The notes under the pieces are model-generated. The model searched no databases and was not told the DNA's origin. It worked only from the letters and a program-made list of their open reading frames with translations. Of a stretch of 57,122 nucleotides of DNA, positions 46,038 to 48,830 are shown piece after piece; positions within the stretch are counted from its first letter, which is position 1; each line of letters begins with the position of its first letter. Source of the stretch: Gemmatimonadaceae bacterium (GTDB lineage: Bacteria > Gemmatimonadota > Gemmatimonadetes > Gemmatimonadales > Gemmatimonadaceae). The stretch is from assembly GCA_036273715.1 (NCBI GenBank), contig DASUHB010000004.1, positions 1 through 57,122 of the forward strand, given 5' to 3'. The position numbers and the translations under genes were made by a program.

Positions 46038-46955
46038 TTACGGGCGCACGCGAATGACGGGTTTCCCCGACCGCCGCTTGGTCGAATTGAACGTGGCGAC
46101 CGCATCGCCGAGGGGCGCGACGGCACCGATGTTGGTCCGCAGCCGTCCGTCCCGCACGCGCTGCACGATCTCGTTCAGTTGGCCACGATCGGCCTCGACG
46201 ACGAAGTCGATCGCCAATCCGTCGACGGGCCGCGCCTCGACCGGCCCGACGATCGACACCAACGTTCCGCCGGGTCGGATCAGTCGCGCGGACCGCTTCC
46301 CAATGTCGCCGCCAATGACATCGAACACGAGGTCGACGCCGCCGACGTCCTCGAGCCTGTCGTGCTCGAGGTCGATGAACTCCTGCGCGCCCAAGTCGAG
46401 CGTCTTCTGCCGGTCTGCCACGCGTCCGGTGCCGATGACATACGCGCCCGCCAATCGCGCGAGTTGCGTGACCATCGACCCGACTGCGCCAGCCGCGCCG
46501 TGCGCGAGGACGCTCTGCCCCGCCTCGAGGCGTCCGAGCTGAAACAATCCCTGCCATGCGGTAAGGCCTGAGATCGGCAGACTGGCACCCACCGTGAAGT
46601 CGACGTCGCCCGGGAGCGGCGCGATGTTGCGCGCTTCGATCGCCAGAAACTCGGCAAGGGTGCCGTCGCGATACCAGTCCGCGAGCCCGAACACGCGCTG
46701 TCCGACCGACAAACCCGTCGTGCCGTAACCGAGGGCTGTGACCACGCCGGCCATCTCGTGTCCCGGGATCGACGGTGTGCGCTGGCGACCGACGCGATCG
46801 GTCCAGGTCGACGGCCACGTCAGTTCGGTGGGGACGAAGCCCGATGCATGAACCTGGATAATGACGTCGTTGATTGCTGCCTGCGGTGTGGGCCGCTCCG
46901 TCAATTCCATCCCGGCCGTGCCTGCAGTCTGGTCCATCACCACGATTGCCTTCAT
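46038..46955 (-). CDS. Quinone oxidoreductase-like NADP-dependent MDR enzyme
   Basis: 305 residues of the zinc-independent medium-chain dehydrogenase/reductase family: PGHEMAGVVTALG, then the nucleotide-binding AHGAAGAVGSMVTQLAR and FDVIGG. No structural zinc-lobe cysteines. It likely reduces quinones or alkenals with NADPH as a detoxification step. Start ATG 46955. It is the first gene of the motif-poor stretch. A MerR-type operator lies 140 bp upstream but points the other way. Confidence 0.85.
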   Translation of the reverse strand: MKAIVVMDQTAGTAGMELTERPTPQAAINDVIIQVHASGFVPTELTWPSTWTDRVGRQRTPSIPGHEMAGVVTALGYGTTGLSVGQRVFGLADWYRDGTLAEFLAIEARNIAPLPGDVDFTVGASLPISGLTAWQGLFQLGRLEAGQSVLAHGAAGAVGSMVTQLARLAGAYVIGTGRVADRQKTLDLGAQEFIDLEHDRLEDVGGVDLVFDVIGGDIGKRSARLIRPGGTLVSIVGPVEARPVDGLAIDFVVEADRGQLNEIVQRVRDGRLRTNIGAVAPLGDAVATFNSTKRRSGKPVIRVRP

Positions 46956-47093: not shown

Positions 47094-47125
47094 TTGACTC
47101 TATACTCAGGTATAGAGGTTATCCT
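47094..47125 (+). promoter_or_regulatory. MerR-type promoter with 19-bp spacer
   Basis: -35 TTGACT (47094-47099), 19-bp spacer, -10 TTATCC (47119-47124). The spacer region holds the perfect palindrome CTCTATAC-TCAG-GTATAGAG (47098-47117). An over-long spacer with a centred dyad is the signature of promoters twisted into activity by MerR-family regulators. No merR gene is present within several kb. Confidence 0.75.
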
Positions 47126-47270
47126 GCGATTGGGAATCGCCCGAGGGGAACGATGCGCAAGGCGCATGAGTGCTCTGTTCGTGGACCGCAGGGTTGAGAT
47201 GGCTGGCATACGCGAGAAGAGCGTTGTCGGCGCGACGAGTGGAACCGTCGGTTCACCCGACTCCACCGCC

Positions 47271-48479
47271 ATGCCAACGCTCGCCGACATCCAGCGCGCC
47301 CGCGCGCTCATCGCTGCCACCGTCGTGCACACGCCGCTCGTACCCGCGCTCGCGCTCCGCGACCGCGTCCCTGCTCCGCTCTTTCTCAAGCTCGAAAACC
47401 TGCAGCGCACCGGATCGTTCAAGGATCGCGGTGCGTTGAACCGCCTCCTCGCGCTCACGACCGAGGAACGCGTGCGCGGCGTCGTCACCGCGAGCGCCGG
47501 CAACCACGCACAAGCCGTCGCCTACCACGGCGCGCGACTTGGTATTCCGGTGCAAGTCGTGATGCCCGAGCACACGCCGCTCATCAAGGTGTCGAACACT
47601 CGCCGGTTCGGTGCGGACGTGCGCTTTCATGGGGCGACGCTCGACGAGGCGATCACGGAAGCGAAGCGTCTCGAACGAGAGGAGTCGCGCGTCCTCGTGC
47701 ACGCCTTCGACGACGACCGCGTGATCGCCGGCCAAGGTACGATCGGCCTCGAGTTGCTCGAGCAGCACGCGAACCTCACCGCAGTGGTCGTGCCGATTGG
47801 CGGCGGCGGTCTCATCTCGGGCATTGCCATCGCGATCAAAGAGCAGCGTCCGTCAGTAAGGATCTTCGGCGTGGAAGCCGCCGCGGCGCCGTCCGCACTC
47901 GCGTCGCGCACCGCCGGGCACATCGTAAAGCTCGAGTCTGCGGACACGCTCGCAGACGGCATCGCGGTGAAGCGTGTGGGCGAGCGGCCGTTTCCACTCA
48001 TCGAGCGATACGTCGACGACATCGTGAGCGTAGGCGAGGACGAGATCGCGATGGCAATCCACCTGTTGCTCGAGCACGAGAAAGTGTTGGCCGAGGGCGC
48101 GGGTGCGGTCCCGCTCGCGGCGCTGGTTGCAGACAAGCTGCCGATCGCCAAGCACGATGTCGTCGCGATGGTACTCTCGGGCGGCAACATCGATGTCAAC
48201 ATGGTCGAGCGGATCATCGCCCGCGGCCTGGTCACTGACGGGCGGCTCGCGATGCTCGCCATCACGGTGCCGGATCGTCCAGGGAATCTCGCACGCGTGA
48301 CCACGCTGGTGGCGGCCGCGGGCGCCAACGTGCTCCAGCTCTCGCACGCGCGCGCCTTCGCCGACATCTCGGTGCGAGACGTGGAGATCGTGATGCAGCT
48401 CGAGACCCGCGGGCCGGAGCACGTGCGAGAGGTCGTTCGCGCGCTCGAACACCACGGCTTCGGCGTACGCCGGCAATGA
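47271..48479 (+). CDS. Threonine ammonia-lyase (deaminase) with C-terminal ACT domain
   Basis: 402 residues from ATG 47271 (MPTLADIQRARALI), the usual family start. PLP lysine K51 in RTGSFKDRGALN; glycine-rich phosphate loop PIGGGGLISG; SGGNIDVN near 300; an ACT domain (about 325-402, AITVPDRPGNLARVT). It converts threonine to 2-oxobutanoate and ammonia. A longer frame from ATG 47166 would add 35 residues of no family resemblance, but starts just downstream of the MerR-type promoter. Confidence 0.88.
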   Translation: MPTLADIQRARALIAATVVHTPLVPALALRDRVPAPLFLKLENLQRTGSFKDRGALNRLLALTTEERVRGVVTASAGNHAQAVAYHGARLGIPVQVVMPEHTPLIKVSNTRRFGADVRFHGATLDEAITEAKRLEREESRVLVHAFDDDRVIAGQGTIGLELLEQHANLTAVVVPIGGGGLISGIAIAIKEQRPSVRIFGVEAAAAPSALASRTAGHIVKLESADTLADGIAVKRVGERPFPLIERYVDDIVSVGEDEIAMAIHLLLEHEKVLAEGAGAVPLAALVADKLPIAKHDVVAMVLSGGNIDVNMVERIIARGLVTDGRLAMLAITVPDRPGNLARVTTLVAAAGANVLQLSHARAFADISVRDVEIVMQLETRGPEHVREVVRALEHHGFGVRRQ

Positions 48480-48551
48480 ACGGACTCAGGGAATCCATTC
48501 CACTCTCGACCACATCGACACAATCCAACTCACGAGTTCACGAGGAACACG

Positions 48552-48830
48552 ATGACACCCGACAACACGAACGATACGAGGTGCGCCAATACGCATGGCG
48601 CCGATCGCGTTAGCATCGCTGCTGGCGCTCGACCTGCGCATCCGAATCTGGATTGTTCGCTGAGTGTGAACGCGGTGCTCGCGCGCTATCCGTCCACGGG
48701 CCCGGTCTTCCATCGCTTTGGACTCGACACGTGCTGCGGCGGCAGGTTGAGCGTTGCCGATGCCGCACGCGCCGCCAACGTCGACGGGGAAACTCTGTGC
48801 GGCGCGCTCGAGGAGGTCATCGCCGCCTAA
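48552..48830 (+). CDS. DUF542 / ScdA-N domain protein
   Basis: 92 residues. The C-terminal ~55 residues (VNAVLARYPSTGPVFHRFGL, DTCCGGRLSVADAA) are the DUF542 domain found at the N-terminus of RIC/ScdA iron-sulfur-cluster repair proteins, with the conserved Cys-Cys pair. The haemerythrin domain of full RIC is absent, as in short stand-alone homologues. GAGGAACACG precedes the ATG. Its TAA stop is part of the only GCCTAAC heptamer between 45.3 and 53.5 kb. Confidence 0.8.
   Translation: MTPDNTNDTRCANTHGADRVSIAAGARPAHPNLDCSLSVNAVLARYPSTGPVFHRFGLDTCCGGRLSVADAARAANVDGETLCGALEEVIAA

Follow-up and report, generated by a model that had tools for sequence, protein, structure and literature searches.

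The question raised by this locus is why a promoter of the type used by MerR regulators stands ahead of a threonine deaminase gene in an operon that holds no complete merR. The window, by which we mean the whole stretch of 57,122 nucleotides that was analysed, comes from a draft Gemmatimonadaceae genome (G000; 81 contigs, 98.7% complete), and at 47094-47125 it reads TTGACT CTATACTCAGGTATAGAGGT TATCCT. A TTGAC-like -35 element starts at 47094, and a spacer of 20 bp before TATCCT holds a dyad (47098-47117) with arms of 8 bp each (47098-47105 and 47110-47117, centre 47107.5) and no mismatch. This confirmed the perfect dyad in an over-long spacer that an earlier note on this DNA had described. The 19-bp spacer given in that note was dropped, since TTATCC at that distance matches TATAAT in 1/6 positions versus 4/6 for TATCCT at 20 bp, and since the 20-bp spacing gave the top score, alone or tied, in 27/30 surveyed promoter sites. 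The 16-bp core of the dyad, CTATAC-N4-GTATAG, has a single exact copy in the window, where shuffles average 0.10 at ≤2 mismatches, and is unique in the 4.34-Mb draft genome with ≤1 mismatch allowed (control 0). A sigma-70 promoter scan that admits only spacers of 16-18 bp returned no promoter. Promoters with spacers of 19-20 bp are, according to the available text of PMC8113463, activated by MerR regulators. Judged by these sequence features, the site is confirmed as a genuine promoter of the MerR type. The features of the locus are collected in the table.

Table. Features of the threonine deaminase operon and its promoter region in the window.
Feature	Position	Strand	Basis
-35 element TTGACT	47094..47099	+	sequence
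MerR-type operator (predicted), perfect dyad CTCTATAC-TCAG-GTATAGAG	47098..47117	.	sequence, window and genome searches
-10 element TATCCT, 20-bp spacer	47120..47125	+	4/6 TATAAT matches
14-codon leader ORF MRKAHECSVRGPQG, translation putative	47153..47197	+	sequence, comparison with G004 and G420/L079
Threonine ammonia-lyase with ACT domain (TIGR01127), native first operon gene, conserved start MPTLAD	47271..48479	+	459.9 bits vs cut-off 378.75; PALP and ACT
Deletion junction, net loss of 377 bp against G004	48500..48502	.	alignment with G004; junction recurs in G325:C59
merR remnant, last 17 codons and stop (TLDHIDTIQLTSSRGTR*)	48502..48555	+	alignment with G004
DUF542/ScdA_N protein, next operon gene	48552..48830	+	PF04405, 43.8 bits, cut-off 32.5

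To place the promoter among its kind, 395 Gemmatimonadota genomes, sampled evenly from a larger set, were surveyed. A strict promoter pattern found 14 sites in 13 of these genomes and a relaxed one 30 sites in 25, and reversed-pattern controls found 0 in all 395. A metal-type merR was present in the fetched locus at 24 of the 30 relaxed-pattern sites, starting ≤130 bp downstream of the -35 element at 15 of the 30, 220-1399 bp downstream at 6 and upstream at 3. Dyads of this sort do arise by chance, and survey site L167 (in G254), with a poor -10 element and no merR in 16 kb of contig, is probably such a coincidence within a coding frame; it was set aside yet is counted among the 30. For the window, a palindrome that arose by chance between ordinary genes is hardly credible: the dyad is exact and unique in its genome, the -35 and -10 elements are properly spaced around it, the reversed control was empty, merR adjoins most sites of the pattern, and merR lies in the same operon in both a sister genome (G004) and an outgroup (G420/L079).

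In G004, which belongs to the same genus, the threonine deaminase is 96% identical to that of the window (41 genomes searched), and the locus (L006) runs from the promoter through threonine deaminase and a complete gene for a metal-type MerR of 143 aa to DUF542, with the merR stop overlapping the DUF542 start. The same order of promoter, threonine deaminase, merR and DUF542 was found in the outgroup G420, whose enzyme is 88% identical and whose MerR shares 80% identity with the G004 protein over the best segment. L079, the MAG Gemmatimonadaceae bacterium GZL_HY_2_bin.24, is the same genome as G420 (100% over 4200 bp), and because the sequences are identical the two were counted as a single outgroup; the ancestral order is thus known from one outgroup genome only. 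The operator core CTATACTCAGGTATAG has the same letters in G004 and G420/L079. Because promoter and enzyme are already adjacent in both, we regard threonine deaminase as the native first gene and not as a recent capture, and the earlier proposal that a deletion had put it under this promoter does not hold. Nor do the relatives carry merR where it had been expected, between 47153 and 47271, since in G004 and G420/L079 it follows threonine deaminase. Orthologous loci with the same spacing and no merR, which would have spoken against a deletion, did not turn up either, as among the carriers of promoter and enzyme (G000, G004, G420/L079) only the window's genome is without merR. Threonine deaminase matches at E ≤ 1e-110 were found in 7 of 179 family genomes; three of the six genomes of the genus in the sample (G001, G003 and G005) are without a close orthologue at this threshold.

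The comparison with G004 also locates what is missing. From the threonine deaminase stop to the DUF542 start there are 72 bp in the window vs 449 bp in G004, and the end of the shorter interval aligns with the end of the G004 merR, at 12/17 residues and 49/54 bases identical, with a stop that shares an ATGA with the DUF542 start, just as the merR stop of G004 does. At this length the remnant escapes tblastn at E 0.01, and it is identified from the G004 alignment. The same junction is present in a partial contig of another assembly (G325:C59), which matches the window with 99.87% identity over 2300 bp and begins inside the enzyme gene, with the promoter beyond its reach. Its bin belongs to another genus, and the contig may be a misbinned piece of the same population; we take it as confirmation of the junction, not as a second event. 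The deletion of merR suggested by the earlier note is consequently upheld as regards the loss from the operon, with the window and G325:C59 bearing the scar and G004 and G420/L079 the intact gene, but its site is after threonine deaminase. The enzyme itself evolves under purifying selection between the window genome and G004 (dN 0.023, dS 0.175).

Loss in the window lineage is the simplest reading of this pattern. The direction of change could be the opposite, with merR inserted in G004 and G420/L079 and the window representing an older merR-less operon, as the loci differ by a single gene within an otherwise collinear order, and three more distant forms of the enzyme, in G002 (of the same genus), G046 and G329 (77, 73 and 70% identical), are accompanied by neither dyad nor merR in the fetched stretches; G002 has the enzyme with neither promoter nor merR. 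We consider such an insertion very unlikely, because a homologue of the final 17 codons of merR, overlapping stop included, is present in the window, which would be unexpected at an empty site, because the promoter type itself is associated with merR, and because the merR-containing order is common to two lineages, G004 and G420/L079.

The region between promoter and threonine deaminase (47153-47270) measures 118 bp in the window and 110 bp in G004, and G420/L079 is without this leader, its threonine deaminase starting 57 bp past the start of the -35 element. The ATG at 47153 does open a 14-codon frame, as had been noted, but it is no merR start, since the G004 merR is complete further down the operon; with merR elsewhere in G004 and no leader in G420/L079, the frame was ruled out as a merR remnant, and from the sequence comparison it is a leader. 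At its position G004 has a diverged ORF of 25 codons. The opening of the frame reads M.KAHECSV in both genomes. In genus g41 (L068 and L069, minus strand; L176) a MerR-type promoter is separated from merR/rpsD by a small CC-containing ORF in which ECCGWDVW precedes ELAG. Kinship of the leader frame with this ORF was unsupported, as the g41-ORF query matched 4 of 179 family genomes, one of them weakly, and missed both G000 and G004. Upstream of the promoter the window carries a quinone oxidoreductase-like gene (46038-46955, minus strand), and none was found by tblastn in the first 12 kb of G004's operon contig.

The regulator that appears to have been lost can be described from its G004 counterpart, which has the domains MerR_1 and MerR-DNA-bind and a cysteine pair, C112 and C122. 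Its best score was to the mercury MerR family (TIGR02051), 129.7 bits and below the cut-off of 150.85, and it also fell under the NCBIfam cut-offs of CueR, ZntR and CadR-PbrR. The closest solved relatives are 4ua1 and 5crl (mercuric regulator) and CueR. Mercury is bound in Tn501 MerR by the cysteine ligands C82, C117 and C126; in the G004 protein the two C-terminal cysteines have counterparts in C112 and C122, and an alanine takes the position of the first cysteine of 4ua1 and 5crl, so the set of three ligands is incomplete. The protein is like the CueR, ZntR, CadR and MerR families in its domains and cysteine pair, and unlike them in its sub-cut-off scores and this alanine.

No match to this MerR was obtained in G000 at E ≤ 0.001, either with the G004 protein as query (21 candidates scored) or with a MerR profile built from nine members (93 candidates scored). 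A cognate merR, present in G004 and G420/L079, was accordingly not found in the draft G000, and a genome search for a MerR with other dyad-bearing targets, as the earlier note had advised, led to a single-copy dyad and no metal-type MerR. G000 has three MerR_1 hits that match neither query nor profile; judged from the translations, one resembles HspR/MlrA, one looks like a short MerR-like protein, and one appears to be of the citrate-synthase type and to carry a MerR-like domain at its N terminus. Possibly, a relocated merR lies on sequence missing from the draft.

These searches bear on the possibility of continued control in trans, exerted on the promoter by a second MerR-type protein or by a factor outside the MerR family. 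From the -35 through the -10 element 0/32 bases differ between window and G004, compared with 19/102 aligned bases in the upstream sequence and 36/250 fourfold sites, and a promoter without decay runs against expectation for an old loss and a useless site. Regulator genes lying apart from the promoter occur elsewhere: three other genomes with an apparent local loss (G050, G069 and G064) retain a metal-type MerR elsewhere, and in Synechocystis merA is distant from the gene of the MerR regulator Slr0701, as stated in the available part of PMC6741143. Nevertheless, we consider control in trans unlikely, as the searches of G000 at E ≤ 0.001 gave no metal-type MerR, its three MerR_1 proteins match neither query nor profile, and the conservation of the promoter may simply predate the loss of merR. 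Because this loss is undatable, the unchanged promoter is no proof of present function.

Taken together, we favour, with a probability of about 0.85, a MerR-regulated operon with the ancestral order promoter, threonine deaminase, merR and DUF542, from which a net deletion of 377 bp took nearly all of merR and left the rest intact. In the ancestral operon MerR would have bound the dyad, and the deletion would have spared promoter, operator and flanking genes. Without MerR the promoter, with its 20-bp spacer, would probably be weak and unregulated, neither inducible nor held repressed. We expect this weakness because the 19-bp mer promoter stays unactivated without MerR, according to the available text of PMC11049809.

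The window is not alone in this respect. Six of the 30 relaxed-pattern sites are without merR in the fetched locus, namely L167, L169, the window, and the sites in G050, G069 and G064. At L169 (G201) there is no merR within 1.5 kb, and its contig carries two merR matches at distances of about 3.3 and 4.0 kb. G050 and G069 share one common scar, a merR end resembling DCPLLEALGPI between a small ORF and rpsD, and in G210, of the same genus, merR is intact. The mer-like operon of G064 (L175/L180, 5302-5540) has about 17 N-terminal MerR residues, which match other MerR starts, followed by merT-like and merA-like genes (names from translations); a 3' merR remnant was suspected there and was unsupported. 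G050, G069 and G064 each retain another metal-type MerR elsewhere by profile search, and in G000 none was found. If the scars are read correctly, merR would have been lost at least three separate times, in the window, in the rpsD operon of G050/G069 and in the mer-like operon of G064. It is a tentative idea that excision of MerR from intact operons is recurrent and possibly selected in Gemmatimonadota, turning an inducible system into one that is constitutively weak or controlled in trans. In the parts of the literature on mer operons without merR that were available, nothing was found on deletion of the regulator, and a search joining MerR family, spacer and threonine dehydratase gave no match.

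Among known systems, the Tn501/Tn21 mer promoter offers the nearest comparison, and we take it that the dyad core directly follows the -35 hexamer there as it does in the window. Both have an over-long spacer between -35 and -10 that holds a dyad, as described in the available text of PMC11049809. They differ in spacer length (20 bp in the window, 19 bp in mer), in the arms (CTATAC/GTATAG in the window, CCGTAC/GTACGG in mer), and in that the window's promoter serves threonine deaminase and its regulator gene has been deleted. The promoter is of the same class as those of the autoregulated metal-type merR operons of Gemmatimonadota, e.g. G155, where a mercuric-reductase-like (merA-like) gene, read from its translation, lies downstream; unlike in these operons, threonine deaminase in the window lineage came ahead of merR, and merR is gone. 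Threonine deaminase and DUF542 would thereby be added to the native targets of a metal-type MerR. At this locus merR has been deleted naturally and its promoter has stayed intact, and the sister genome retains the regulator; the pair allows one to ask how a promoter with a 20-bp spacer behaves without its activator-repressor and why the operon was kept. The same promoter type also precedes genes for secreted-looking proteins with a HCD.MDGPVV motif (L037/L172 and L076; G046 and G299), and in both genomes relatives of the G004 merR lie near them.
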